Shown piece after piece: positions 524-12,978 of a DNA stretch of 64,000 bases. The notes beneath the pieces are model-generated. The model made no database searches and had not been told where the DNA came from. It saw only the letters and a list, made by a program, of their open reading frames with translations. How positions within the stretch are numbered: the first letter of the stretch is position 1; every line of letters starts with the position of its first letter. The stretch is from Oscillospiraceae bacterium (lineage in GTDB: Bacteria; Bacillota; Clostridia; Oscillospirales; Ruminococcaceae), in assembly GCA_022835495.1 (NCBI GenBank), contig BQOK01000001.1, positions 3,100,001 to 3,164,000 of the forward strand. The letters are read 5' to 3'. The position numbers and the translations under genes are program-made.

Positions 524-1621
524 ATGTCCTCCCCCCTCGTGTCGATCATTGTTCCCGTCTATAATGTGGAAGCCTATTTGTCCCGCTGCCTTGAGAGCAT
601 TGCCGCACAAACCTTCCGTGATTTTGAGTGCATCCTGGTGGACGACGGTTCCACCGATTCCTCGCCCGCGCTTTGTGACGAGTGGGCACAGCGCGATCCG
701 CGTTTCCGGGTCCTGCACCAAAAAAACGGCGGCATTTCCGCCGCCCGCAACAGCGGTATGGATGCTGCGCAGGGGCAGTATCTGGTGTTCAGCGACGACG
801 ACGATACCCTTCATCCACAGCTTTTGTCGTCGGCGCTGGCTGCACAGGCCGAATCCCCGCCCCCCGCCCTTGTATGCTGGAAGTACGGTCCCGAATTTCC
901 CGTTTCCCTGCCGCTTCAGCCGCATCCGGTGCCCCAGTCGGTGGACGGACTTTTCCTGGGCAGCGATTTTGCCAACGTGTGGGGCAAGCTGTGGAGTCGG
1001 GAATTGGTGAATGGCTTTTCCATCCGTTTTGACGAATCCCTCCGCTGGTGCGAAGACCTCGATTTTGTGACCCGCTACCTTCTCGCACTGTATCAGCAGA
1101 ACGGGGCCCTTACTTTCCTGCTGATCCCCCACGTGCTGTATCGCTATGAACAGCAGCGCCCCGGCAATGTGACCAGCCGATATTCGCCCGACAAGCTCAT
1201 CTATGAACAAAAAACCCTGCCCGAAGTCCTGGACCTCTTCGAAACGCAGCTGCAGCAGGATGCCGGCCGCTGGGGCCCCTTTTGCCAGGCGCAGCTCTTT
1301 GCGCTGATCGGCCGCCTCACGGATCTTTACCGCTTCGAAACAAGCCTCTCCCCCGCCCGGCGCCGCCGGGCGATCCGGGGCTATCTCGCCTCGCCCGCCA
1401 CCCGGCGGCTCCTGGCCCTCTGCGGGCAATATCGCGTCTGGCCCTCCATGCGTTTTTGTGCGGAGCACGGTCTTGTGCGCGCTGTGTTCTTTCTGGCGCG
1501 CAATTGCTACAAGCCCTGGTACAAAGCCCTCGTCCGCATCCAGCTTTGGATCAAAAACAAATTCTATTGGGGCTTCCGGGCGCTCCGGCGCCTGCCGCCT
1601 CAAGGAAAGGAGGAACCGTAA
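524..1621 (+). CDS. Family 2 glycosyltransferase (365 aa)
   Basis: This is a cytoplasmic GT-A fold transferase that adds a sugar from a nucleotide-sugar donor during surface polysaccharide assembly. The N-terminus reads VSIIVPVYNVEAYL, followed by the nucleotide-binding acidic pair at D40-D41 and a metal-binding DxD-type run at 91-94. A CED motif at 176-178 is the usual position of the catalytic base. The C-terminal 150 residues are shared with the flanking paralogues but are not a named domain known to me. The ATG at 524 is 6 nt after the previous stop, and the next gene starts 1 nt after this stop, so the genes are tightly coupled. Donor and acceptor are unknown. Confidence 0.9.
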   Translation: MSSPLVSIIVPVYNVEAYLSRCLESIAAQTFRDFECILVDDGSTDSSPALCDEWAQRDPRFRVLHQKNGGISAARNSGMDAAQGQYLVFSDDDDTLHPQLLSSALAAQAESPPPALVCWKYGPEFPVSLPLQPHPVPQSVDGLFLGSDFANVWGKLWSRELVNGFSIRFDESLRWCEDLDFVTRYLLALYQQNGALTFLLIPHVLYRYEQQRPGNVTSRYSPDKLIYEQKTLPEVLDLFETQLQQDAGRWGPFCQAQLFALIGRLTDLYRFETSLSPARRRRAIRGYLASPATRRLLALCGQYRVWPSMRFCAEHGLVRAVFFLARNCYKPWYKALVRIQLWIKNKFYWGFRALRRLPPQGKEEP

Positions 1622-1622
1622 C

Positions 1623-2678
1623 ATGCCCACCCCTCTTGTCACCATTGCGGTGCCCATCTACAACGTAAAAGAGTGTCTTCCGGCACTGTTCGCCTCCCTC
1701 GAGGCGCAAAGCTTTTCCAATTTCGAATGTATCTTGGTGGATGACGGCTCCTCAGACGGCTCAGGAGCCGTCTGCGACGAACAGGTTCGTCGCGATGCCC
1801 GGTTTTCGGTGATCCACCAAAAAAACGCGGGGGTGTGCAGCGCCCGCAACGCGGGCATCCGGGCCGCAAAAGGCCGGTTCGTCGTGCTGTGCGACCAGGA
1901 CGACCAACTGGCTCCGCGCACCCTTGAATGGGCGCTGGCCGAACAGCAGGCCCATCCCGATCAGCTGATCGTGTGGCCCTTTACCCGCAGTCCCGAAGCG
2001 TTCGCCGCCCAGCCCGGCTTCTACTCCACCACCTGCTTTGGCCGCGGCGAAACGCTGCGCTATTTCGCCAGCGATCTGTTCATCTATGTATGGAACAAGC
2101 TTCTGCCCACCGAGGTGCTGCGCGCCATGCCCGCCCTGTTCACCGAGGGCATGGTGGGCGGCGGCGAGGATTTCGACTTTATGGCCCGCTTTCTTCCCGC
2201 CTTTTTTGCCCTGCATCCGGGCGGCGGCGTGCGCCAGATCGAAGCCCCGCTGTATTACTGGAACCTGGAAAACGAGAAAAGCGTTTCCAAATGGCAGGGC
2301 AACCACGCACACTACTGTCAAAAGCAATTTGCTTTCTTCAACCGGGTAAAATCTGCTTTCGCCCCTTTCTACGAACAGGAACCCCGCCAGATCGCCCAAT
2401 GCATGAACCGCATCCTGCGGCCGGTGGTGTTCGGCCTCACTCTGGCAAAGCAGAACGGCGAGCCCGCCTCGGAATGCTGGCAGTCCCCCGAGCTGGCTGA
2501 AATGCTGGATTGGCTCCGCCAAAATCGCTGGTACACCGATTTTTACCTGCCCCTGCGGCTGCGCTGCGCTCCCCTGGCCCGGGCGATGCTGCGCTGGCAG
2601 GAGCAGCGCCCTGCCCTTTACTGGAAGTGCTATTGGCTGGGGTATTATCTGCTGGCCCGGGGCTGGCAGCGCCTGTGA
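1623..2678 (+). CDS. Family 2 glycosyltransferase (351 aa)
   Basis: Third member of the tandem GT2 array. It starts MPTPLVTIAVPIYNV, has the acidic pair D40-D41 and a DQDD metal-binding motif at 91-94. The ATG at 1623 is chosen because AAAGGAGG-like bases (around 1608-1614) precede it and because the GT2 fold begins right there; upstream in-frame starts would overlap the previous gene. It ends with the YWLGYYLLARG segment related to the other members. It is a probable sugar transferase of the polysaccharide locus, with unknown specificity. Divergence from its neighbours is strong outside the catalytic core, which fits different acceptors rather than simple redundancy. Confidence 0.9.
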   Translation: MPTPLVTIAVPIYNVKECLPALFASLEAQSFSNFECILVDDGSSDGSGAVCDEQVRRDARFSVIHQKNAGVCSARNAGIRAAKGRFVVLCDQDDQLAPRTLEWALAEQQAHPDQLIVWPFTRSPEAFAAQPGFYSTTCFGRGETLRYFASDLFIYVWNKLLPTEVLRAMPALFTEGMVGGGEDFDFMARFLPAFFALHPGGGVRQIEAPLYYWNLENEKSVSKWQGNHAHYCQKQFAFFNRVKSAFAPFYEQEPRQIAQCMNRILRPVVFGLTLAKQNGEPASECWQSPELAEMLDWLRQNRWYTDFYLPLRLRCAPLARAMLRWQEQRPALYWKCYWLGYYLLARGWQRL

Positions 2679-2705
2679 TCTCAACTCTTCGAAAGGAGCG
2701 CGCGG

Positions 2706-3800
2706 ATGGAAACACCCCCTTCCCCCACGGTCAGCGTGGTGGTGCCGGTCTACAAAGCCGAGGCCTGGCTGCCCCGCTGCGTGGAAAGCCTGCTGGCGCA
2801 GGCCTTCCCGGATTTTGAGCTTCTTCTGATCGACGACGGCAGCCCGGACGGCTGCGGCGCCCTGTGCGACGGCTTTGCCTGCCGCGACGGCCGGGTGCGC
2901 GCGCTGCACCAAACAAACGGCGGCGCCTCCAGCGCCCGCAACGCGGGCATCCGGGCGGCCCGGGGCCGCTATCTCACCTTTGTGGATTCCGACGATCTCG
3001 TTTCGCCCCATCTTCTGCAGGCCGCCGCCGAAGCCGCGGGGGCCTTTCCGGGCGATTTTGTATTCTGGGCCTATGCAGACGAACGCTCCCTTCTGCACAC
3101 CGGTCCGCTTACCAGTTCCCCCATCCCCTTTGCGCCCAGCGAGATCGGCCGGCTCTACATCAGCGCAAAGCTGGGCGCCGTTTGGGCCATGCTGTTCGAC
3201 ACGGCCCTTCTGCAGCAGGGCATCTTTTTTGATGAGAGCCTGGAGATGGGCGAGGATCTGGAATTCGTCTTCCGCTACGCCCGGGCGCTCTTCTCCGCCC
3301 GGCCCGGCAGCTGTTTTCGCTATCTGCCCGACCCGCTCTATTTCTACGACAACGACGGCAAGGCGGGCAGTCTGTCCCGCCGCTTCCCGCCGGACTTCTG
3401 CGCTTGCTGGAGCCGGGTATTCGAAGCGCTTTTAGCGCAAAACCGCGAATTCTTCCACATGCCGGAGCAGGATGAATACGCCATCCTGCACAATTATATG
3501 CGCACGGTGGGCGTGGGCCTTTATGCCCTGCTCACCCAGCCGGGCGTTTCCAATGCCCAGCGCCGCGCCGCGGCAAGGGGGGTTCTCCAAAGCCCCCCCA
3601 TCACCCGGCTCACCGCCCTCTTTTTTGAGCGGCGCTACTATTCGCCCTACGCCTGGCCCTTCCGGCTCAAATGGCTGTGGGCCATCCGCCGCATCGGCGC
3701 CTGGCAGGAGCGCGAGGGCATCAACGGCTACTATCGGCACTATTGGGTGGGCTACGCGATCCACCGCAGGCTGCATCCCGGCAGCCCCGCCCCCGTATAG
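2706..3800 (+). CDS. Family 2 glycosyltransferase (364 aa)
   Basis: Fourth tandem GT2 enzyme. VSVVVPVYKAEAWL is followed by the acidic pair D43-D44 and the metal-binding VDSDD at 93-97; a GEDLEF motif lies further on, where these enzymes carry the catalytic acid. A Shine-Dalgarno AAAGGAG sits at about 2692-2698, just ahead of the ATG at 2706. The gene is the last before a 126-nt gap that contains a fresh promoter, so the GT2 array and the exporter may be separate transcription units. Donor and acceptor are unknown. Confidence 0.9.
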   Translation: METPPSPTVSVVVPVYKAEAWLPRCVESLLAQAFPDFELLLIDDGSPDGCGALCDGFACRDGRVRALHQTNGGASSARNAGIRAARGRYLTFVDSDDLVSPHLLQAAAEAAGAFPGDFVFWAYADERSLLHTGPLTSSPIPFAPSEIGRLYISAKLGAVWAMLFDTALLQQGIFFDESLEMGEDLEFVFRYARALFSARPGSCFRYLPDPLYFYDNDGKAGSLSRRFPPDFCACWSRVFEALLAQNREFFHMPEQDEYAILHNYMRTVGVGLYALLTQPGVSNAQRRAAARGVLQSPPITRLTALFFERRYYSPYAWPFRLKWLWAIRRIGAWQEREGINGYYRHYWVGYAIHRRLHPGSPAPV

Positions 3801-3926: not shown

Positions 3927-4799
3927 ATGGGCAAAACAAGGCAATCCACCGAATGGACTACCGTCATCCGCCCCCGCAGCGGCTGGTTTGATATCGACTT
4001 CAGGGATCTGTGGCATTATCGCGACCTGGTGCTTCTGTTTGTCAAGCGCAATTTCACCGTGATGTACAAGCAGACCATCCTGGGGCCGCTGTGGATCCTG
4101 CTCAATCCGCTCATCACCACAATTTTATTCAATGTGATCTTCGGCACCATCGCCGGCCTGCCCACCGAGGGCGCGCCCAGCTTTTTGTTCATCATGGCGG
4201 GCAACACCCTCTGGGGCATGTTCGCCTCCTGCATCAACAACACGGCCAACACCTTTGTGGCCAACGCCGGCATGTTCGGCAAGGTCTATTTTCCGCGGCT
4301 GGTCACTCCCCTGTCGCAGGTGCTGTCGGCGCTGGTGAACTTTTTCATCCAGTTTGCCATGTTCCTGTGCTTCTGGCTGTACTTTTTCTTCCTGGATCCC
4401 GGCGCCGGCCGCATTGCCATGACTCCCTGGGCTCTTTACCTGCCCCTCCTGCTGGTGCAGGTCATGATGCTGGGCCTCGGCGTCGGCATCATCGTTTCCA
4501 GCCTCACCACCAAATACCGGGATCTCGCCATTGCGGTGGGCTTCGGCGTGCAGCTGTGGATGTACGCCACTCCCGTGGTCTATTCCATGGACAGCCTGTT
4601 CAACCAGCCCACCCTGCGCTTGATCGTGAACATCAATCCCATGACCGCGCCCGTGCAGGTGTTCCGCAAGGCCCTGCTGGGCTGCGGCACGGTAAACGTG
4701 GGCAGCCTGTGGTGGAGCCTGGGGCTCACCGTCCTGCTGCTGCTGGTGGGGGTCATCCTGTTCAGCCGCATTGAAAAAACCTTTATGGACACGGTATAA
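3927..4799 (+). CDS. wzm: Polysaccharide ABC exporter, permease (Wzm/TagG type)
   Basis: Membrane subunit of an ABC-2 type exporter that moves a completed, lipid-linked polysaccharide or teichoic-type polymer across the cytoplasmic membrane. At 290 aa it has the usual family length. The family signature YKQTILGPLW lies near 47-56, followed by about six hydrophobic helices (roughly 52-73, 85-105, 130-160, 168-192, 202-222 and 258-280). It is followed 19 nt later by the matching ATPase. The presence of this pair, and the absence of any Wzx or Wzy in the window, points to ABC-dependent export of a chain finished in the cytoplasm. Confidence 0.92.
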   Translation: MGKTRQSTEWTTVIRPRSGWFDIDFRDLWHYRDLVLLFVKRNFTVMYKQTILGPLWILLNPLITTILFNVIFGTIAGLPTEGAPSFLFIMAGNTLWGMFASCINNTANTFVANAGMFGKVYFPRLVTPLSQVLSALVNFFIQFAMFLCFWLYFFFLDPGAGRIAMTPWALYLPLLLVQVMMLGLGVGIIVSSLTTKYRDLAIAVGFGVQLWMYATPVVYSMDSLFNQPTLRLIVNINPMTAPVQVFRKALLGCGTVNVGSLWWSLGLTVLLLLVGVILFSRIEKTFMDTV

Positions 4800-4818
4800 A
4801 CCGGGAGGGTACAAAAAT

Positions 4819-6111
4819 ATGGCATTACAAAATACCACCCGGGAGCCTGTCATCCAGGTGACCGGCCTGAAAAAGCAGTATCGCCTCGGCCAGATCGGCG
4901 GCGGCACCCTCACCGCAGACTTGCAAAGCTGGTGGGCCCGCAAGCGCGGCAAAGAGGATCCCAACGTCAAGATCGGCACCGACACCCGCCTGTTCGGCCA
5001 AACCTTCATGGCCCTCAACGGCGTGGACCTGACCGTTTACAAGGGCGAGGCCCTGGGCATCATCGGCCGCAACGGGGCGGGCAAATCCACCCTTTTAAAG
5101 CTGCTCAGCCGCATCACCGCCCCCACGGAGGGCGAAATCCGGCTCAAGGGCCGCATTGCCAGCATGCTGGAGGTGGGCACCGGCTTCAACAACGAGATGA
5201 CCGGCCGCGAAAACATCTATATGAATGGCACCATCCTGGGCATGACCCGGGCCGAGGTGGATGCCAAGCTGGATCAGATCATTGAATTCTCCGAATGCGG
5301 CGATTTCATCGACACTCCGGTCAAGCGCTACTCCAGCGGCATGTTCGTCAAGCTGGCCTTCGCGGTGGCCGCCCATCTCGACTCCGAGATCATGGTCATG
5401 GACGAGGTCCTCGCGGTGGGCGACATGAAATTCCAGCAAAAGTGCCTGGGCAAAATGAGCGACGTGGCCGGCCAGGAGGGCCGCACAGTGCTCTATGTCA
5501 GCCACAACATGAGCACCATCCGCCAGCTGTGCACCCGCTGCATCGTGCTGAACCAGGGCAAGGTCATCTACGACGGCAACGTGGAGGACGCCATCGCCAT
5601 TTACATGGATACCACCGATGTGAATGTGACCCATTACGACCTGCGGGACTCGGGGCGCCTCACCCAGAACTCCGGGGTGCGCTTTTTCCTGGAAGAACTG
5701 AACTTCCCCGGCAAGGAGAGCAGCGTGTTCCGCACCACCGAGCCCGTCCGGGTGGAACTGAAATGGCATGTGAGCGAGCCCTTCTCGGGGGTCAACCTGA
5801 AGTTCAACCTGCACTTCCGCGACAGCAGCCCGGTGGGCATCACCCATCCGGTGGATCTCGGCCCCTGCGAGCCCGGCCGCACCTACACCACCACTGTCAC
5901 TTTTGACCCGGCCATCCTGGGCGAGGGGCAGTACCATTTTTTTGTGGACGTCTTCGAAAAAACCCTGGCCAGCTCGGTCTGTCTGGATAAACCCAATCAG
6001 GAATTCGCCTTCGAGGTGGTAAACACCGACCTCACCATTCCCGAGTGGTCGGCGGGCTGGGGCCGCATCCATTTCCCCCCCCTCACCATCGAGAGCCGGC
6101 AGGAGTCCTGA
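4819..6111 (+). CDS. wzt: Polysaccharide ABC exporter, ATPase with C-terminal Wzt domain
   Basis: ATPase partner of the preceding permease. Walker A GRNGAGKST is at 83-91, the ABC signature YSSGM at 171-175, Walker B IMVMDE at 191-196 and the switch histidine at 229. Residues about 275-430 form an extra beta-rich domain of the Wzt C-terminal type, which in characterised O-antigen exporters recognises the end of the finished glycan. The ATG at 4819 is preferred to an upstream in-frame start inside the permease gene, because GGGAGG lies at 4803-4808. The extra domain makes a capped, chain-terminated polymer more likely than a plain teichoic acid; that is inference. Confidence 0.92.
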   Translation: MALQNTTREPVIQVTGLKKQYRLGQIGGGTLTADLQSWWARKRGKEDPNVKIGTDTRLFGQTFMALNGVDLTVYKGEALGIIGRNGAGKSTLLKLLSRITAPTEGEIRLKGRIASMLEVGTGFNNEMTGRENIYMNGTILGMTRAEVDAKLDQIIEFSECGDFIDTPVKRYSSGMFVKLAFAVAAHLDSEIMVMDEVLAVGDMKFQQKCLGKMSDVAGQEGRTVLYVSHNMSTIRQLCTRCIVLNQGKVIYDGNVEDAIAIYMDTTDVNVTHYDLRDSGRLTQNSGVRFFLEELNFPGKESSVFRTTEPVRVELKWHVSEPFSGVNLKFNLHFRDSSPVGITHPVDLGPCEPGRTYTTTVTFDPAILGEGQYHFFVDVFEKTLASSVCLDKPNQEFAFEVVNTDLTIPEWSAGWGRIHFPPLTIESRQES

Positions 6112-6113
6112 AG

Positions 6114-7106
6114 ATGGGGCGCGAATTGTATCTCTGCCATACCCCTTATCAGGTGCTGGTGGAACTGTGCCGCGCCATGCACGCCGCACAAAAGCCCGAT
6201 CTGATCCTGAGCTGTTCGGTGCCCGGCGCCCAGGCCCTGGCCGAACGGCTCTCCGCCACCGGCCTGTTTGGCTCGGTGCGCTGCTTCGACGAGGAAAAAT
6301 GCGGCAGCGCTCTCCAACGGGGCGTCCTGCGCACCCTGCTTTTGCAGCGCTTTCTCGGCCGCCGCAACGTGGAAAAGCATTACGGCTTTTCCATCGACCC
6401 CGCGCTCTACGACAAGGTTTATATCCACAACGACTGGAGCGTACTGGGGCGCTATCTCCAGGATAAGCACATCCCCTACATCCTCTGCGAGGATACCTTC
6501 GCCAGCACCTGCCGGCCCTCCCATCCTCTCATTGACCAGCAGCGGGCGGCGCCCTGGTTCCGCCTGCGGCAGGCGATCGGCTATGGATACCTCTACTGGG
6601 GCGACTGGAAAGGCGTCGCCGCCGTAGAAACCGAGTGCGCCCGCCGCACCCCCCTGTTTGCGGAAAAGCTGGCCGAACACTCCAAGGCGGCTCTCTTCCA
6701 CTCCCTCACCGGCCCGCAGAAAGCGCTGATCCGCCAGGTGTTCCTCACCCAGCCCCTGCCCGAAACAGCCGAGGGCGCGGTGCTGTTTTTGCCCCGGGAT
6801 TTCGCGGCCGAAGGCCTTCTGGACGTCGACACCCAAAAGCGTATGTTCCTGGCTGTGGCCGGGGAATACTGCAAGGGTGGGCCCCTCTTTGTCAAGGCCC
6901 ACCCCCGCGACGCCACCGATTACGGGGCCCTCTTCCCGGGCGCCGTCATCCTGGAGCGCACTATGCCCAGCGAGGTGCTCAATTTTGCGCTTCCCTTCCG
7001 CTTTGCCCGCGCCGTCACGGTGGAGTCCACCGTGCTCAAAAGCCTGGAAGTGGCGGACGAAGCCCTGGAACTCACCCTGTGCCAGGCGCTGGCCCTCTTA
7101 ACCTGA
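6114..7106 (+). CDS. GT52/polysialyltransferase-like glycosyltransferase, likely CMP-sugar dependent
   Basis: 330 residues. The start ELYLCHTPYQVL matches the N-terminal signature of family 52 sialyltransferases. The three motifs shared by bacterial sialyl- and polysialyltransferases can be seen in order: an acidic pair (E126-D127), an HP motif (H263-P264, in KAHPRD) and a Ser-Thr pair (S305-T306). The third position of the first motif is Thr rather than the usual Gly. The gene starts 2 nt after wzt and is followed by a cytidylyltransferase gene, so donor use of a CMP-sugar made next door is the natural reading. The start at 6114 follows the wzt stop; a longer N-terminus would overlap wzt. 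Substrate is inferred only. Confidence 0.72.
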   Translation: MGRELYLCHTPYQVLVELCRAMHAAQKPDLILSCSVPGAQALAERLSATGLFGSVRCFDEEKCGSALQRGVLRTLLLQRFLGRRNVEKHYGFSIDPALYDKVYIHNDWSVLGRYLQDKHIPYILCEDTFASTCRPSHPLIDQQRAAPWFRLRQAIGYGYLYWGDWKGVAAVETECARRTPLFAEKLAEHSKAALFHSLTGPQKALIRQVFLTQPLPETAEGAVLFLPRDFAAEGLLDVDTQKRMFLAVAGEYCKGGPLFVKAHPRDATDYGALFPGAVILERTMPSEVLNFALPFRFARAVTVESTVLKSLEVADEALELTLCQALALLT

Positions 7107-7187
7107 ATTTCCTCCTTTTTTCTGTCTTTTTTGAAAAATTCCACGCCGCCGCCCCGTTGTATGGGCAGCGGGGCAAGGAGGCCCTTT

Positions 7188-7922
7188 ATGAAGATTCTCG
7201 GCGTGATCCCCGCTCGCTATCAGTCCAGCCGGCTGCCGGGCAAGCCCCTGGCGGACATTCTCGGCAAGCCCATGCTCTGGTGGGTCTACCGGGCCGCCAG
7301 CCGCTGTGCGCGCCTCGACGGCCTGGTCGTCGCCACCGACGACGAGCGCATTTTAAAGGTGTGCGCCGGGCTCGGTCTGCAGGCGGTCATGACCAGCCCC
7401 GACCACGATACCCCCACCGCCCGCATCCACGAGGTCAGCACCCGCCTAAACGCCGATCTTTATCTGCAGATCATGGGGGACGAGCCTCTCATCGACCCGC
7501 GGGCGCTCGATCTGATCCTGCCGGCCGAGCTGCCCGCCGACCCATTCTATGTGGCGGGTGTGACCAACCGCATGGACCACCCGGCGGATGTGATCGACTT
7601 CTCCAACCAAAAAGTGGCCTGCAACGCCCGGCGCGAGATCCTGATGATCAGCCGCAGCCCCATCCCCTACCCCAAGGGCACGCTGGATTTCGAATACGAA
7701 AAGATCACCGGCATCCAGCTGTTCTCAAAGCAGGCCCTGGCCTTTTACGCCGCCAGCCCCAAAAGCGCGCTGGAAAAGGCCGAGGAAAACGATCTGATGC
7801 GCTTTATCGAAAACGGTCACACGGTGCACGCGGTGCTCTCGCCCTACAAGACCGTTTCGGTAGACACCCCCAAGGACCTGGATGTGGTGTGCAACATTTT
7901 GAAAGAACGCGGGGCGGTGTGA
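7188..7922 (+). CDS. CMP-ketosugar synthetase, KdsB-like cytidylyltransferase
   Basis: 244 aa, the usual length of KdsB, the enzyme that joins CMP to 2-keto-3-deoxy-octonate. The CTP-binding motif IPARYQSSRLPGKPL is at 7-21, TDD at 50-52 and GDEPLI at 97-102. The stretch that in true KdsB reads as an SGTDR-type motif is instead HDTPTARIHEV at about 73-83, so the sugar-binding side is altered. GCAAGGAGG precedes the ATG at 7188. KDO is not expected in a Gram-positive envelope, so I call the activity CMP-transfer to a KDO-like ulosonic acid. The gene sits between a CMP-sugar-type transferase and an aldolase. Function of the fold is secure; the substrate is not. Confidence 0.8.
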   Translation: MKILGVIPARYQSSRLPGKPLADILGKPMLWWVYRAASRCARLDGLVVATDDERILKVCAGLGLQAVMTSPDHDTPTARIHEVSTRLNADLYLQIMGDEPLIDPRALDLILPAELPADPFYVAGVTNRMDHPADVIDFSNQKVACNARREILMISRSPIPYPKGTLDFEYEKITGIQLFSKQALAFYAASPKSALEKAEENDLMRFIENGHTVHAVLSPYKTVSVDTPKDLDVVCNILKERGAV

Positions 7923-8004
7923 CCCCGCTTTCCCCTTTTGCGGTATAACCCTTCCCGGCGGCGCTGCGGGCCGCCCCTTGCCATTCGGCAGAAAGGACAA
8001 CGCT

Positions 8005-9558
8005 ATGCAAAACATCCGTTTGCTGGACTGCACCCTGCGGGACGGCGGCTATATCAACGACTGGAACTTCGGCTTTGAAAACATCCGCGACATCGTATCC
8101 AGCCTCACCCGCGCCGGGGTGGACATCGTGGAAGTGGGCTTTCTGCGCAATGTGGACTACGATCCCGACCGCACCCGCTGGAATACCGTCAAGGAACTCA
8201 AAAGCATCCTGCCCGCCGACCGGCGCAATGTGCTCTTCAGCGGCATGGCCCTGCACAACTTTTACGATATTGACAAGCTCGAACCCTGGGACGGCACCGG
8301 CATCGACCTGATCCGGGTCACCTTCCACGACTACGACATCACCGAGGGCCTCGAGTTCTGCCGCAAGGCCCAGGAAAAGGGCTATAAGATCAGCTGCAAC
8401 CCCATCAACATCATGGGCTATTCAGACGAGGGCGTGCTCTGGCTGGTGGAGCAGGTGAATAAGCTCCACCCCTTTGCCTTCTCCATCGTCGATACCTTCG
8501 GCAGCATGCACCAGCAGGACCTGGACCGCATCGTCAGCCTGGTGGACAACAACCTCGCCAAGGACATTTCCCTCGGCCTGCACCTGCACGAGAACATGGC
8601 CCAGAGCTTCAGCCTGGCCCAGAGCTTTTTGAACAAGCACCTGGTGGGCCGGGACGTCACGGTGGACGCCAGCCTTCTGGGCATGGGCCGCACCCCCGGC
8701 AACCTGTGCATCGAGCTCATGGCCGATTATTTGAATCTGAACTTCGGCAAGCAGTATGACATCGACTGTATGCTGGACGCCATCCAGGACCACATCCTGC
8801 CCATCCGGGAAAAAGAACCCTGGGGCTACTCGCCCCCCTATTTTCTGTCGGCCCGTTACAACCTGCACCGCAATTACGCCGAGCACTTCCTCTCCAAGGG
8901 CGATCTCTCCAACCGGGACATCAACCATCTGCTCAGCCGCATCGCGCCCGAAAAAAAGACCGCGTTCGACGCCTCCTATGCAGACGAGCTGTACGCGGCC
9001 TACAAGGACCACCGGATCAACGACGCTGCCGCCCGCGCCTCTCTGCAAAAAAAGCTGGCGGGCCGCACCGTGCTCTGCCTTGCTCCCGGCGCCTCGCTCA
9101 GCACCCACAAGGCCCAGATCGAGGCCTACATCGCCGCCGAGCGGCCGCTGGTGATCGCGGCCAACTTTATCCCCGCGGATTTTTCCGCCGACTATGCCTT
9201 TTTCACCAGCGGCAAGCGGTTTGAAAAGCTCGCCGCCCGGCCCTGCCCGGTGCTCGCCACCTCCAACATCGCCGGCAAGGCGGACTATGTCCTCGACTAT
9301 AACAGCCTGGCGGGCGCTTTCCAGCTCGGCAGCAACAGCCTGGTCATGCTGCTGCACCTTCTGGCGGATCTCGGCGTCCGGGAGGCGGCCCTCGCGGGCG
9401 CCGACGGCTACGGCCCCGACGGCGAAAACTATGCCGACAAGCGCATGAAGAACCACACTCCCCGCGGGTCCGAGTACAACGCCGCCATGGCAAAGGCCAT
9501 CCGCGCGCAGGGCCTCGCCGTGCGCTTTGTCACCCCCAGCCATTACGAAAAGGAGTGA
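8005..9558 (+). CDS. DRE-TIM metallo-aldolase (HMGL-like) with an additional C-terminal domain
   Basis: 517 aa, longer than single-domain aldolases of this superfamily. Residues about 1-300 are a TIM barrel of the 4-hydroxy-2-oxovalerate aldolase/HMG-CoA lyase group: DCTLRDGG at 8-15 with R12 and metal-binding D13, the metal-ligand pair H193/H195 in GLHLHEN, and GMGRTPGN at 226-233. Such enzymes join or split pyruvate and an aldehyde. Residues about 354-517 form a separate domain (TVLCLAPGAS near 355-364, AGADGYG near 464-470) that resembles the Rossmann-like domains of DUF115/Maf proteins; that likeness is tentative. GAAAGGA precedes the ATG at 8005. Lying between a KdsB-like and a KdsC-like gene, it may build a 2-keto-3-deoxy sugar acid in place of KdsA. 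Confidence 0.75.
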   Translation: MQNIRLLDCTLRDGGYINDWNFGFENIRDIVSSLTRAGVDIVEVGFLRNVDYDPDRTRWNTVKELKSILPADRRNVLFSGMALHNFYDIDKLEPWDGTGIDLIRVTFHDYDITEGLEFCRKAQEKGYKISCNPINIMGYSDEGVLWLVEQVNKLHPFAFSIVDTFGSMHQQDLDRIVSLVDNNLAKDISLGLHLHENMAQSFSLAQSFLNKHLVGRDVTVDASLLGMGRTPGNLCIELMADYLNLNFGKQYDIDCMLDAIQDHILPIREKEPWGYSPPYFLSARYNLHRNYAEHFLSKGDLSNRDINHLLSRIAPEKKTAFDASYADELYAAYKDHRINDAAARASLQKKLAGRTVLCLAPGASLSTHKAQIEAYIAAERPLVIAANFIPADFSADYAFFTSGKRFEKLAARPCPVLATSNIAGKADYVLDYNSLAGAFQLGSNSLVMLLHLLADLGVREAALAGADGYGPDGENYADKRMKNHTPRGSEYNAAMAKAIRAQGLAVRFVTPSHYEKE

Positions 9559-9563
9559 GCCGG

Positions 9564-10088
9564 ATGCTGCCCATCAAGCTGCTGGTGCTGGACGTGGACG
9601 GTACCCTGACCGACGGCGGGCTTTACCTGGATTCCACCGGGAACGAAATGAAAAAGTTCTCGGTGCGGGACGGCGCCGGCCTTATGCTGGCGCGCGCCGC
9701 AGGCATCCGGGTCATGATCCTCACCGGCCGCGAGAGCGAGCCGGTGCGCCGCCGGGCCGCCGAGCTGCACCTGGATTGGTGCGTACAGAACTGCAAGGAT
9801 AAGCGCGCCTACCTGGCGGCCTTTCTGGCAGAGCAGGGCCTCTCCAAAGAGCAGGCCGCCTATGTGGGCGACGACTGGAACGACCTGGCCGCCATGCAGC
9901 TGTGCGGCTTTGTGGCCTGCCCGGCCAACGCCGCCCCCGAAGTGGCGGCCCTGGCCGATTACGTGTGCCCCCAAAAGGGGGGCGAGGGCGCGGTGCGGGG
10001 CGCGGTGGAATATCTGCTGCGGGGCGCCGGCCTGTTCGAAACCACCTTAAAAGCCGCCTTCGGCGCGGAGGTACCCTCCCATGTATGA
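9564..10088 (+). CDS. KdsC-like HAD phosphatase
   Basis: 174 aa, the usual length of 3-deoxy-octulosonate-8-phosphate phosphatase. The HAD nucleophile pair is D10/D12 in LDVDGT. The KdsC-typical FSVRDGAG follows at 32-39, motif III/IV GDDWND is at 102-107, and GGEGAVR near 139-145 is the C-terminal KdsC signature. The ATG at 9564 is chosen because AAGGAG (9549-9554) is 9 nt away; a GTG at 9555 overlaps the aldolase stop but has no room for the Shine-Dalgarno. It would remove phosphate from a ketosugar-acid phosphate before CMP activation. Overlap of 8 nt with the next gene shows translational coupling. Confidence 0.82.
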   Translation: MLPIKLLVLDVDGTLTDGGLYLDSTGNEMKKFSVRDGAGLMLARAAGIRVMILTGRESEPVRRRAAELHLDWCVQNCKDKRAYLAAFLAEQGLSKEQAAYVGDDWNDLAAMQLCGFVACPANAAPEVAALADYVCPQKGGEGAVRGAVEYLLRGAGLFETTLKAAFGAEVPSHV

Positions 10089-10761
10089 AGCTCTGAAACA
10101 GGCCGTGTTCGAGGCGAACCTCGCGCTGCCCAAGGCAAACCTCTGCCTGGCCACCTGGGGCAATGCCAGCCAGGCGGACCGCGAAGCCGGGGTGTTCGCC
10201 ATCAAGCCCTCAGGGGTGGATTATCAGGCCCTCACCCCCGCCGATCTGGTGGTCCTGCGCCTTGCGGACGGCGCAGTGGTGGAAGGCGCGCTGCGCCCCT
10301 CGTCCGACACCGCCACCCATCTGGAGCTCTATCGCGCCTTTCCCGAGGCGTGCGGCGTGGTGCACACCCACAGCCGGTGGGCCACCATCTTTGCGCAGGC
10401 CGGGCGCAGCATCCCGGCTCTCGGCACCACCCACGCCGATACCTTTTACGGCCCGGTGCCCTGCGTCCGCCCCCTCACAAAAGAGGAGGTCGAAGCCGGG
10501 TACGAGCGCAATACCGGCCTTGTGCTGGCGGCCGGCTGCCCGGCGCACGCCGCGATCCCTGCCGGCCTTGTAAAAGGGCACGGCCCTTTCACCTGGGGCA
10601 AAAGCGCAGCGGCGGCGGTCCAGCATGCGATCATTCTCGAGGAGGTTGCCATGATGGCATACCACACCCTCGCGCTGGGCGGCGCCCCGGTGGACCAATA
10701 TCTGCTGGATAAGCACTACCTCCGCAAGCACGGTCCCGGCGCGTATTACGGCCAGGGCTGA
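10081..10761 (+). CDS. L-ribulose-5-phosphate 4-epimerase (AraD/UlaF-like class II aldolase fold)
   Basis: 226 aa. The zinc ligands H95 and H97 (HTHS) and H167 (KGHG), the phosphate-site D76 (SSDT), D120 in TTHAD and the C-terminal RKHGPGAYYG match the AraD family closely. D120 and the late tyrosines are epimerase features, so it is called an epimerase rather than an aldolase. It interconverts L-ribulose-5-phosphate and D-xylulose-5-phosphate in known members. No arabinose, ascorbate or xylulose catabolic genes lie nearby; instead it overlaps the KdsC-like gene by 8 nt inside the polysaccharide locus. It probably supplies or shapes a pentose-phosphate precursor for the neighbouring aldolase (inference). 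Confidence 0.8.
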   Translation: MYEALKQAVFEANLALPKANLCLATWGNASQADREAGVFAIKPSGVDYQALTPADLVVLRLADGAVVEGALRPSSDTATHLELYRAFPEACGVVHTHSRWATIFAQAGRSIPALGTTHADTFYGPVPCVRPLTKEEVEAGYERNTGLVLAAGCPAHAAIPAGLVKGHGPFTWGKSAAAAVQHAIILEEVAMMAYHTLALGGAPVDQYLLDKHYLRKHGPGAYYGQG

Positions 10762-10827
10762 ACCTCCCCCGTTTTGGAAAATCATTTTGCGCGAAAACAA
10801 AACTGCGGAAAGGTTTTTATACACTTT

Positions 10828-12978
10828 ATGAAACAGTTTATCGCACAGCTCAAACAGCACCGGCGCATCCTTCTGTGCGTTCTCGCCTGCCTCGCGGCGT
10901 TTTCCGTGTTTGCCCTCATCTGGCTCACCAACATCCGGGGCCAGGGCGAGAAGAGCTCGGGCTGGGCCATCAACGATCAGTTCCACAGCTATGTGCCGGT
11001 GGAACAGCAGCTGGTGCAGGAGTTCACCTGTGACCGCGATCTGTATGCCCTCAGCTTTGTGCTCGCCGCCCAGGATGTGCAAACGCCCCCCGAGGGCGCC
11101 CTGGACCTTGTGCTGGAAGACGTGGACACCGGCGAGGTGCTGGCCCGCTCCCAGGGTGAGCTGCGCTACATTTACAACGGCTGGGACGCCTATTACACCA
11201 CCCTTGGGCTCGCCCCCCCGGTGGAACTGCCCAGCGCCGGGCAGCGGCATTACCGGGTCACCCTCACCCCCCATTACACCGGCGAGGGCCGCCTTGTGGC
11301 CGGCTACGAAGAGGGGGGGGCGCCGGCCGGCATCTCCCTCACGGCGGACGGCAAACCGGTAAACGGCACCCTGGCCCTCAAAGGCACGCAGGCGCGGGTG
11401 GGCGGTTTTCTCACCGCCTTTTATTGGTTCATCGCCCTGGGCTGCATCGCCCTTCTCGGGGCCGCCACCTGGTTCGTTGCGGGCAAAAAGCTGCCGCTGC
11501 ACCGGCTGGTGTTCCTGCTCATCCTGGGGCTGGGGCTTCTCTACAACCTGGTTCTTCCTCCCTATGCCGCGCCGGACGAGATGTTTCATATCAACCAGAG
11601 CTTCAGCCTGGCAAGCTCGGCCTACAACCCCTATCTGCCGGTGGGTAAGGTCCCCCTGCACGAATCCCTGCACCGCCCCTCAGACCAGGATCCCCTTCTG
11701 CAGGACGGCTATACCACCGTGTTCACCTGGCAGCGCATGGCAAAGCTTGCGGGCGAGCGCAACACCGACGCCTGGGGCGTGACCCCCAACCGCAATTCCC
11801 CCCAGGCCGACAACAGCTACACCCTGTATCTTGTCAGTTCCGCGGCGGTGCTGCTCTGCTTTTACCTGCGGGTCGGGTTTGTGGGGGCCCTCTTCGCCGG
11901 GCGGCTGGCAAATCTGTTGTTTTTTGCTTTTCTTGCTGCCTGGGCGGTCAAGCGAACGCCGGTGGCAAAACCCGTGTTCGCCCTCTCCGCCCTTCTGCCC
12001 ATGACCCTGCATCTGGCGGCCTCCTTCAGCCGGGATTCCAACCTTTTGGCCCTGTGCTTTCTGTTTTCCGCGGTCATGCTGGATCTGGCCTTCGGCCCGC
12101 GCGAGCGCCTGGGCTGGGAGCAGCTGCTCCTCCCGGCCGTGCTGGGCGTGGTCATCGCCCCCAGCAAGCTCGTGTATCTGCCGCTCATCGCGCTGGTGTT
12201 CCTCATCCCCGCCGCGCGGCTGGGGCGGTACTCCAGGCTGCTCAAGGCCGGCTTCGTGGTGCTGTGCCTCGCGGCATTTTTGTCCGGGCGCGGGGTCGGG
12301 CTCACCTTGGGCGGCTTCACCCAGGGCAGCGGCCAGGCCGCTGAAGGCGCGGTGAGCAGCCAGGCGGCAGAGGGCCTGGCCGGCGGCCAAACCGCCAGCC
12401 AGGCACAGCAGGCTGAGCCATCGGAGCCCTTTCCCTCTGAGGCCCCCGGCGGCGAGGCCGCCCCCTCCCTTCCCGAGCAGGACCTGGTGTGTTATACCCT
12501 CCCCTATATTCTCTCCCACCCGCTGGACACTTTGCAGCTGTGTGTCCGTTCCCTTGTCGAGCTGGGCGACCATTACGTCAAAACTCTGGTGGGGGGCACC
12601 CTGAGCTACTTCAACACCAGCAAAGATTTAAACATTGCCTGGACCTTCGTGGCGGCACTGTACCTCCTCCTGGCTCTCGCGTGGCTCTCCCCGGGCCAGA
12701 TCGTTCTGCCCGGGCGCGCCAAAGCCCTCTGCCTTTTCTCTGCGCTTGTCTGCTGCGGCCTTGCCGTGGTGGGCTGCATTTCCTGGACTCCCACCTATTA
12801 CACCGTTATCTATGGCTTCCAGGGCCGTTATCTCCTTCCGGTGCTGCCCCTGCTGCTCTCGGTGCGGCCAAAGCGCCTCACCCTCACGGCAGACTGCAGC
12901 TACGGCCTTGTGTACGCCGCGGTCCTGGTGGGCCTCGGCGTGCTGCTCAACGCATTCCTGGCCGTCGTGGCCCGCTAA
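10828..12978 (+). CDS. DUF2142 polytopic membrane protein, probable GT-C type transferase
   Basis: 716 aa with one N-terminal transmembrane helix (about 17-35), a long extracytoplasmic stretch, and about ten further hydrophobic segments. The PPYAAPDEMFH motif is the DUF2142 signature and carries the acidic residue expected of GT-C enzymes using polyprenyl-phosphate sugars. A low-complexity, Ala/Gln/Glu/Ser-rich loop of about 60 residues is encoded around 12330-12480. The start at 10828 (MKQFIAQL) is used because a helix follows directly and GGAAAGG lies at 10807-10813, although the 14-nt spacing is long; a TTG at 10774 is possible. Its polyprenyl-linked donor could be made by the following GT2-GtrA protein. 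Confidence 0.78.
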   Translation: MKQFIAQLKQHRRILLCVLACLAAFSVFALIWLTNIRGQGEKSSGWAINDQFHSYVPVEQQLVQEFTCDRDLYALSFVLAAQDVQTPPEGALDLVLEDVDTGEVLARSQGELRYIYNGWDAYYTTLGLAPPVELPSAGQRHYRVTLTPHYTGEGRLVAGYEEGGAPAGISLTADGKPVNGTLALKGTQARVGGFLTAFYWFIALGCIALLGAATWFVAGKKLPLHRLVFLLILGLGLLYNLVLPPYAAPDEMFHINQSFSLASSAYNPYLPVGKVPLHESLHRPSDQDPLLQDGYTTVFTWQRMAKLAGERNTDAWGVTPNRNSPQADNSYTLYLVSSAAVLLCFYLRVGFVGALFAGRLANLLFFAFLAAWAVKRTPVAKPVFALSALLPMTLHLAASFSRDSNLLALCFLFSAVMLDLAFGPRERLGWEQLLLPAVLGVVIAPSKLVYLPLIALVFLIPAARLGRYSRLLKAGFVVLCLAAFLSGRGVGLTLGGFTQGSGQAAEGAVSSQAAEGLAGGQTASQAQQAEPSEPFPSEAPGGEAAPSLPEQDLVCYTLPYILSHPLDTLQLCVRSLVELGDHYVKTLVGGTLSYFNTSKDLNIAWTFVAALYLLLALAWLSPGQIVLPGRAKALCLFSALVCCGLAVVGCISWTPTYYTVIYGFQGRYLLPVLPLLLSVRPKRLTLTADCSYGLVYAAVLVGLGVLLNAFLAVVAR

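Follow-up and report, generated by a model that had tools for sequence, protein, structure and literature searches.

A five-gene module of an Oscillospiraceae bacterium (genome of 3.76 Mb, 99% complete) probably makes a cytidine monophosphate (CMP)-activated 2-keto-3-deoxy-ulosonic acid, and probably not 3-deoxy-D-manno-oct-2-ulosonic acid (Kdo), by way of a pyruvate aldolase that replaces the phosphoenolpyruvate (PEP)-dependent step of KdsA or NeuB. The module lies in the window, by which we mean the whole 64,000-nucleotide stretch analysed (positions 3,100,001-3,164,000 of the genome). A sequence-only reading of the window had proposed such a PEP-independent entry, and the comparison of genomes supports it at the level of gene content: relatives of the aldolase are accompanied by a CMP-transferase in 64 of 79 loci and by a KdsC- or PGP-type phosphatase in 57, and neither KdsA nor NeuB was found in 23 of 50 module genomes. 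To this gene association are added the family membership of the enzymes and the swapping of partners around the aldolase.

Gene organisation of the module

The five genes are closely packed on the + strand, behind a Wzm/Wzt exporter and ahead of a DUF2142 gene:

6114..7106, +, putative CMP-sugar glycosyltransferase, weakly GT52-like
7188..7922, +, KdsB-like CMP-ulosonate cytidylyltransferase (CTP_transf_3, 126.5 bits)
8005..9558, +, DRE-TIM metal-dependent aldolase (residues ~10-300) with an MptE/Maf/GT42-like C-terminal domain (~340-526), assigned by profile, fold and invariant residues
9564..10088, +, KdsC/KDN-9-phosphatase-like phosphatase of the haloacid dehalogenase (HAD) type
10081..10761, +, AraD-type L-ribulose-5-phosphate 4-epimerase, accessory

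Likely starts (6114, 7188, 8005, 9564 and 10081) were chosen by Shine-Dalgarno-like stretches. The glycosyltransferase start sits just past the Wzt stop at 6111. The KdsB-like gene opens with the ATG at 7188 behind AAGGAGG, a longer TTG start at 7131 having no Shine-Dalgarno-like stretch; the aldolase ATG at 8005 is preceded by AGAAAGGA and the KdsC-like ATG at 9564 by AAAGGAG (alternative start, GTG at 9555), and the AraD frame overlaps the KdsC frame by 8 bases. Judged by frames and Shine-Dalgarno-like stretches, the adjacency of the five genes first read from the sequence is real. Aldolase residue numbers count from the frame opened at 7978.

Association of the aldolase with CMP-transferases and phosphatases

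A single scan of named genomes gave 566 confirmed aldolase relatives, and the best 80, a set leaning to window-like sequences, were kept. Seventy-nine loci were counted; L098, where no aldolase open reading frame (ORF) was called, was left out. The CMP-transferase gene lay directly upstream of the aldolase gene in 50 loci and the phosphatase gene directly downstream in 44. A thiamine diphosphate (ThDP)-dependent enzyme was present in 15 loci, one of them with a CMP-transferase as well, and one locus had neither. Among these best 80 relatives the family was seen in Bacillota, with single loci in Melainabacteria, Bacteroidota, Fusobacteriota, Spirochaetota and Verrucomicrobiota. A module neighbour in L151 exceeded the Pfam cut-off for polysialyltransferase (49.2 against 23.3 bits), a family that uses CMP-sugars.

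An independent sample of 291 genomes was drawn evenly from the class, the window's own included, and the aldolase was matched in 59 of them (E <= 0.001). The 20 best neighbourhoods of this sample, the window's own excluded, held a CMP-transferase in 8 cases, a ThDP enzyme in 10, both in 1 and neither in 3, two of the last three being contigs under 9 kb. With three CTP_transf_3 genes in its 3.76 Mb, the window's genome would yield about 0.02 such genes per 20-kb stretch by chance; adjacency is a better sign than this expectation, because polysaccharide loci are richer than the genome average.

The expectation that all five genes stay together elsewhere was borne out for the CMP-transferase and the phosphatase, at the counts given above, and not for AraD (3 of 79 loci) or the GT52-like glycosyltransferase (21 of the 63 loci with a CMP-transferase and no ThDP enzyme, here called CMP-only). 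As they were seen in only 21 and 16 CMP-only loci, the GT52-like glycosyltransferase and Wzm are not regarded as core.

Partner swapping on the aldolase tree

Two distantly related kinds of CMP-transferase, both belonging to PF02348, occur in the loci: KdsB-like in 43 and NeuA/PseF-like in 21, each labelled by its best-scoring query. On a tree of 80 aldolases, label changes were compared with those of shuffled labels. The KdsB label changed 13 times, at least 10 of the changes being forced by well supported branches (shuffles, 26); the NeuA label changed 12 times, at least 9 forced (18.7), and the ThDP label 4 times, at least 3 forced (13.1). Two HAD subfamilies supply the phosphatases. Among the 63 CMP-only loci, 35 have a KdsC-type and 11 a PGP-type enzyme; among the 14 ThDP-only loci, 9 have a PGP-type and 1 a KdsC-type enzyme. 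This repeated recruitment of different enzymes of like chemistry argues for one pathway logic.

Genomes without KdsA and NeuB

The genome was searched for 50 of the 64 CMP-type loci (13 of the 63 listed, plus L127, were left out). The NeuB Pfam cut-off was passed in 46 of these genomes. In 24 the match reached at least 240 bits; in 22 the best match was only 29.5-44 bits, and four genomes had no match. The low matches, many of which coincide in position with a sub-threshold KdsA match, are read as 3-deoxy-D-arabino-heptulosonate 7-phosphate (DAHP) synthases, and the line for NeuB was set at 60 bits. NeuB above this line was not found in 26 of the 50 genomes. KdsA exceeded its cut-off in four, three of them among these 26, which leaves the 23 genomes with neither; they include isolates of Paenibacillus, Bacillus, Robinsoniella, Flavonifractor, Proteocatella and Mediterraneibacter. 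No KdsD over cut-off was found in any of the 23.

A comparison of positions, made by hand, showed that the best CTP_transf_3 gene of each of the 23 genomes is the one that encodes the CMP-transferase at the aldolase locus. It adjoins the aldolase gene on the upstream side in 17 genomes and lies within ~8.5 kb of it in six (L083, L090, L091, L096, L097 and L104). No other CTP_transf_3 match above 50 bits was found in 21 of the 23 genomes; G307 and G333 have more.

The window's genome has no KdsA over cut-off (two matches, 112.6 and 108.7 against 314 bits) and no KdsD (TIGR00393; best match 31.6 against 203.7 bits). By sequence, the two KdsA-like matches appear to be DAHP synthases, one standing between aroQ- and aroA-like genes (read by eye). 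Two NeuB genes are present, at 938 kb and 2461 kb, the window beginning at 3100 kb, and none lies in the aldolase locus. All whole-genome model matches to KdsA, KdsD and NeuB fall outside the cluster, from which the sequence-only reading had already noted KdsA, KdsD and NeuB to be absent.

The two NeuB genes bear on an alternative in which the CMP-transferase activates a NeuB-made nonulosonic acid from elsewhere in the genome and the aldolase is unrelated to that acid. NeuB above 60 bits in 24 of 50 module genomes speaks for it as well. Both NeuB genes of the window's genome, however, stand in nonulosonic acid-like clusters with a CMP-transferase gene of their own, and the aldolase/CMP-transferase pair is kept in the 23 genomes without NeuB and KdsA; we consider this explanation unlikely. 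A kdsA or neuB gene elsewhere in the genome had been proposed as evidence against the aldolase route: the two neuB genes are there, each with its own CMP-transferase, and no KdsA over cut-off is. The distribution of neuB, found in 24 of the 50 genomes, does not track that of the module.

Read by eye, the cluster at 938-941 kb holds NeuB, a NeuC-like epimerase, a CBS protein and a CMP-transferase, and that at 2456-2464 kb holds a CMP-transferase, two oxidoreductase-like proteins, a NeuC-like epimerase, NeuB, a CBS-type protein and a LegC-like aminotransferase. With these two nonulosonic-acid-like clusters (L068 and L069), each with its own NeuB and CMP-transferase, the genome has three CMP-sugar loci.

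The ThDP context and branched sugars

Fourteen of the 15 loci without a CMP-transferase (L106, L117, L120, L121, L128, L134, L135, L137, L140, L144-L147 and L150) have instead a ThDP enzyme that is probably YerE-like. The ThDP enzyme of another locus, L032, is nearest to 8rph (E 2e-115, 390 bits), with acetolactate synthases at 1e-69 and weaker (best 239 bits), and lies under every NCBIfam acetolactate synthase cut-off shown; we take 8rph, entered as 'Thiamine pyrophosphate-binding protein', to be the YerE-like enzyme JanthE. In the ThDP locus L039, glucose-1-phosphate cytidylyltransferase (RfbF), CDP-glucose 4,6-dehydratase (RfbG) and RfbH all exceeded their cut-offs, and at least one of these cytidine diphosphate (CDP)-3,6-dideoxyhexose genes was matched strongly in 9 of the 14 ThDP-only loci. 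The aldolase family thus probably also occurs in a second setting, sugar branching of the YerE/ErwE/JanthE type on CDP-3,6-dideoxy-4-ketohexose as in yersiniose and erwiniose, which unlike the window module involves no CMP activation. Clustering of the window ORFs at positions 1-21,500 found no relative of the ThDP, RfbF or RfbH families.

The accessible part of a study of ErwE states that this enzyme prefers 4-hydroxy-2-oxo acids as donors (PMC12247030). Acids of this kind are what is expected as the product of a pyruvate aldolase. The CMP and ThDP contexts fit one chemistry, because a 4-hydroxy-2-oxo acid can serve either as acyl donor or as CMP-sugar, and the aldolase family is a candidate source of such donors for branched sugars.

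The aldolase catalytic domain

The aldolase scored 61 bits against Pfam HMGL-like (cut-off 29) and lay far under the 4-hydroxy-2-oxovalerate aldolase (HOA) equivalog TIGR03217 (59.3 against 286 bits); matches to isopropylmalate synthase models were weak. Its best PDB sequence match was 3dxi, a putative Bacteroides aldolase (E 1.7e-24), followed by HOAs. An AlphaFold2 model (predicted local distance difference test, pLDDT, 92.7; predicted template modelling score, pTM, 0.78) was ranked nearest to 3dxi (2.5e-17), then to HOAs (~1e-16) and then to Claisen-type synthases (1e-12 to 1e-11). Alignment and structural comparison used 57 sequences, the window's and 56 of 77 long aldolases, and D17, C18, T19, L20, R21, D22, G23, H202, H204 and N206 were invariant in all of them. 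The protein thus has the Arg-Asp of TLRD and the HxH metal ligands in a TIM barrel that mark DRE-TIM metallo-aldolases. A divalent metal is presumably held by Asp22, His202 and His204 with Arg21 beside it, roles that we carry over from HOA. On this comparison the aldolase is assigned to an uncharacterised family near HOA.

HOA itself (DmpG; 1nvm, 4lrs and 8ih7) shares the DRE-TIM fold and the TLRDG and HxH motifs, and GMG-GN of the window aldolase recurs in 1nvm and 8ih7. Unlike HOA, which has LRDG-S/M-H, the window family has LRDGGY, CMP-transferase and phosphatase partners and an extra Rossmann-like C-terminal domain. The His after LRDG-x, which we take to be the catalytic His21 of DmpG, is replaced by Tyr in the window protein; across the 57 sequences the residue is Tyr in 49, His in five and Phe in three. 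As this His is replaced, proton transfer must differ from that of HOA. The motifs LDCTLRDGGY, HxH and GMGR-x-x-GNL recur in the nearest solved protein, the 'putative aldolase' BVU_2661 of Bacteroides vulgatus (3dxi). The N-terminal domain alone of this protein was solved, and the entry assigns no function.

The same data bear on the possibility that the 'aldolase' is a Claisen-type synthase, like isopropylmalate or homocitrate synthase, using acyl-CoA and forming a branched acid. Membership of the same superfamily, the weak isopropylmalate synthase matches and the exchange of His for Tyr would agree with this. The nearest relatives by sequence and fold are nevertheless 3dxi and HOA-type enzymes, the adjacent phosphatases point to a phosphorylated sugar acid, and ErwE-type ThDP enzymes use 4-hydroxy-2-oxo acids, so that a Claisen-type reaction appears rather improbable.

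The window aldolase falls in a KdsB-partnered clade of 13 rows (support 100/99) that comprises Gemmiger relatives, other Clostridia, Bacillaceae and one Akkermansia metagenome-assembled genome (MAG), whose aldolases are 52-59% identical to it over best segments. This clade and the ThDP-context aldolases differ at 117 (His/Lys), 118 (Asp/Lys), 205 (Glu/Asn) and 298 (Arg/Pro), as is expected if the aldehydes differ. A plasmid search with the aldolase protein returned 94 records, none covering 80% of it. In Mediterraneibacter glycyrrhizinilyticus, whose genome gave neither a KdsA over cut-off nor a NeuB above 60 bits, a second, distant gene of the family (L080:5650-6700, 346 aa) lies a few kb upstream of the module.

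The C-terminal domain of the aldolase

Residues ~340-526 (window 8995-9558) form a separate domain (model pLDDT 92.9), which the sequence-only reading did not mention; six of its residues are invariant among the 57 sequences. By fold it matched archaeal MptE/HPPK (8sd5, Z 12.3), Maf glycosyltransferase (5mu5, Z 11.4) and CstII (1ro8, Z 10.8), with root mean square deviations of 3.1-3.6 over 153-164 aligned residues, then SteA (Z 10.8), mammalian sialyltransferases (~9-10), thiamin pyrophosphokinase (6.6) and the rest at ~4. Foldseek alone was weaker (SteA 6e-5, ST8SiaIII 3e-3, HPPK 8e-3), with three chains, all SteA, under E 0.001, and Pfam matches were weak (MptE-like in 11 of 57 sequences, CST-I in 2). 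The domain is accordingly placed in the GT42/Maf/MptE superfamily by predicted fold, a placement that carries no claim of activity. The aldolases of L096 and L097 (345 aa) lack it, and since the gene set of these two loci is that of L083, the domain is seemingly dispensable for the core step.

We did not adopt a role as ulosonate transferase for the domain, because ThDP-type loci retain it and L096 and L097 do without it. Weak Pfam 'D-lyxose isomerase' matches in 8 of the 57 C-terminal domains are probably due to chance; D-lyxose isomerase is a cupin, and the predicted fold here is Rossmann-like. Directly upstream of KdsB-aldolase in L119, a protein (8000-9262) combines an MptE-like domain (38.1 against 34.6 bits) with a CDP-glycerol glycerophosphotransferase-like part, so that MptE-like domains recur in module loci. 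In L048 the usual C-terminal domain is replaced by two tandem glycosyltransferase-2-like domains (read by eye) behind the aldolase catalytic domain, in a protein of 1066 aa (6469-9666).

The KdsB-like enzyme, the phosphatase and the accessory enzymes

The KdsB-like protein exceeded one NCBIfam subfamily model, NF003952 (211 against 193 bits), and fell under the other KdsB models listed. Its nearest solved structure is 1gq9 (E 5.5e-43), which we take to be KpsU of the E. coli K5 capsule. The CTP-loop and active-site residues R10, S13, R15, K19, R79 and D98 are all present, active-site roles being assumed for S13, R79 and D98. Q96, H172, Y176, E201 and Q202 (1gq9 order), common to KpsU and Vibrio KdsB and presumably Kdo contacts, are replaced by M, I/V, Q, D and L/M in nine window-group proteins; H172 is kept in 22 of 35 other aldolase-linked KdsBs. 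The accessible part of a study of KdsB states the roles of R10, R15 and K19 and describes an N-terminal domain that binds CTP and a C-terminal domain that binds Kdo (PMC3149649). The sequence changes on the acid side suggest that the substrate is not Kdo and that the acid varies from locus to locus.

The KdsC-like protein exceeded TIGR01670 (131 against 106.95 bits). Its best E-value was to the KDN-9-phosphatase model, at 140 bits under a cut-off of 180, and its nearest solved structure is 3e81 (E 5e-33), deposited as acylneuraminate cytidylyltransferase. With one model cut-off passed by each, the KdsB-like and KdsC-like identities given by the sequence-only reading stand.

A KdsB-like and a KdsC-like gene, with 1gq9 as the closest solved KdsB, are also what an ordinary Kdo pathway with a missed or diverged KdsA and KdsD would show. 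Against that pathway stand the window's genome, with neither KdsA nor KdsD over cut-off, the four KdsA in 50 module genomes, the zero KdsD in the 23 genomes without KdsA and NeuB, and the alteration in the window group of residues common to KpsU and Vibrio KdsB. We regard it as most improbable, and Kdo as the product was judged unlikely on the same grounds.

Salvage or turnover has also to be weighed, in which the aldolase would cleave ulosonic acids of plant rhamnogalacturonan II or Gram-negative lipopolysaccharide and KdsB would re-activate the salvaged acid. Some carriers were indeed obtained from rumen, omasum or caecum. A free acid could, however, be salvaged without a dedicated phosphatase, and the module genes stand among glycosyltransferases and exporters; this explanation is very improbable.

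AraD exceeded PRK08193 (316 against 257 bits) and fell under TIGR00760 (302 against 389); its best solved match is E. coli AraD (1jdi, E 2e-77). It is the sole clear AraD of the genome, two other matches scoring 33-37 bits. The three loci with an AraD match are L073 and L084, where it adjoins KdsC, and L088, where it lies one gene farther, a distribution that rules it out as a core step and does not uphold its earlier place as first step of a complete route. AraD may belong to one module variant. The enzyme forms ketoses, and a pyruvate aldolase is not expected to accept these, so that AraD does not fit readily into the route. In L084, an Akkermansia MAG, the gene order is aldolase-KdsC-AraD-KdsB (8033-11564); this close relative of the module, with AraD inside, reflects either transfer between phyla or a binning error.

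The glycosyltransferase lay under the Pfam cut-off for GT52 (PF07922, 18.5 against 26.1 bits), so that the family assignment made from the sequence is not sustained, and no relative was found among PDB entries. Motifs EDT and K-x-HPRD were invariant in eight sequences, the window's included.

The proposed route

Working in the synthetic direction, which we infer together with pyruvate as donor and a phosphorylated aldehyde as acceptor, the DRE-TIM aldolase would add a metal-bound pyruvate enolate to the aldehyde group of a phosphorylated aldose. The product would be a phosphorylated 4-hydroxy-2-oxo (2-keto-3-deoxy) sugar acid, which the KdsC-like phosphatase would then dephosphorylate, and the KdsB-like enzyme would couple the free acid to CMP. 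From the CMP-sugar the GT52-like enzyme may transfer the acid onto a glycan, and Wzm/Wzt may export the finished glycan; exporter and glycosyltransferase would place the module product in a surface glycan in the window's genome. In the ThDP context a keto acid of this kind would instead serve as acyl donor for a YerE-like ThDP enzyme branching a CDP-3,6-dideoxy-4-ketohexose. No dedicated isomerase would be required if the aldehyde were ribose 5-phosphate, erythrose 4-phosphate or glyceraldehyde 3-phosphate, which fits the lack of KdsD.

Several observations weigh against this route. The aldolase family has no known activity, and the HOA His is Tyr here. The 80 loci are the best of 566 relatives, so window-like sequences are over-represented. 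No phosphatase was seen in 22 of the 79 loci at the thresholds used, L122 has neither CMP-transferase nor ThDP enzyme, the GT52-like and Wzm counts in CMP-only loci are low, and no recurring gene that points to the aldehyde was recognised. KdsB- and NeuA-type enzymes are distant members of PF02348, not unrelated ones, and their labels rest on the best query. The absences of KdsA and NeuB concern 50 genomes of unstated completeness, several of them isolates, and the two NeuB genes of the window's genome could in principle supply an acid.

The module can be compared with known pathways. The Kdo pathway (KdsD-KdsA-KdsC-KdsB) likewise has a phosphatase of KdsC kind acting before a CMP-transferase of KdsB kind, but uses PEP-dependent KdsA, whereas the module has a DRE-TIM aldolase presumed to use pyruvate, no KdsA or KdsD over cut-off, and changed acid-side residues in KdsB. 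Nonulosonic acid pathways (NeuB-NeuA, and KDN with KDN-9-phosphatase) share a CMP-activated 3-deoxy-2-keto acid and a KDN-9-phosphatase-like HAD enzyme, and in the 21 of 79 loci with NeuA/PseF-like transferases these replace KdsB as in such pathways; unlike them, the module has no NeuB in its locus and none above 60 bits in 26 of 50 genomes. Sialic acid aldolase is a Schiff-base enzyme of another family. Its use with CMP-sialic acid synthetase, pyruvate aldol addition being followed by CMP activation, is described as an established bench route in the accessible part of PMC7729866. The module aldolase differs in being a DRE-TIM metalloenzyme that is encoded with its CMP-transferase.

CMP-ulosonic acids are usually taken as a sign of a KdsA or NeuB enzyme. 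The end-product class is already known. No description of a natural aldolase route to it was found in the open-access literature searched, including the accessible parts of PMC12247030, PMC3149649, PMC13171606 and PMC7729866, which is not proof that none exists. A wider proposal, that DRE-TIM pyruvate aldolases form a third ulosonate-forming class beside KdsA/DAHP synthase and NeuB, supplying CMP-ulosonic acids, non-Kdo acids included, and YerE-type branched sugars, with the fused sialyltransferase-like domain handling or sensing the cytidine-linked product, seems to us evenly balanced between right and wrong.

If the aldolase route is true, bacteria without KdsA and NeuB may still bear acidic surface sugars that gene surveys would miss, an uncharacterised family with a solved but unassigned structure (3dxi) gains a testable function, and a likely source is named for the 4-hydroxy-2-oxo acids needed by ErwE-type enzymes. 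A natural version with another aldolase class would also extend to other acids the bench route to CMP-sialic acid, as given in the accessible part of PMC7729866.

Neighbouring genes

The module is flanked by the following genes:

3927..4799, +, Wzm-type ABC-2 polysaccharide export permease (Pfam ABC2_membrane, 66.5 bits, over cut-off)
4771..6111, +, Wzt-type export ATPase with C-terminal domain (ABC_tran, 78.6 bits; Wzt_C, 25.5 bits, under the cut-off of 30.4)
10774..12978, +, DUF2142 membrane protein (PF09913, 88 bits, over cut-off)

Wzm also precedes Wzt-glycosyltransferase-KdsB-aldolase in L072, L073, L074 (Gemmiger formicilis ATCC 27749), L075, L077 and L113, and a DUF2142 gene follows KdsC or AraD in these loci and in L078. 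Upstream of the exporter, at 524-3800 of the window, stand three consecutive glycosyltransferases, family-2-like by appearance, the third of which (2706-3800) was the one checked against Pfam.

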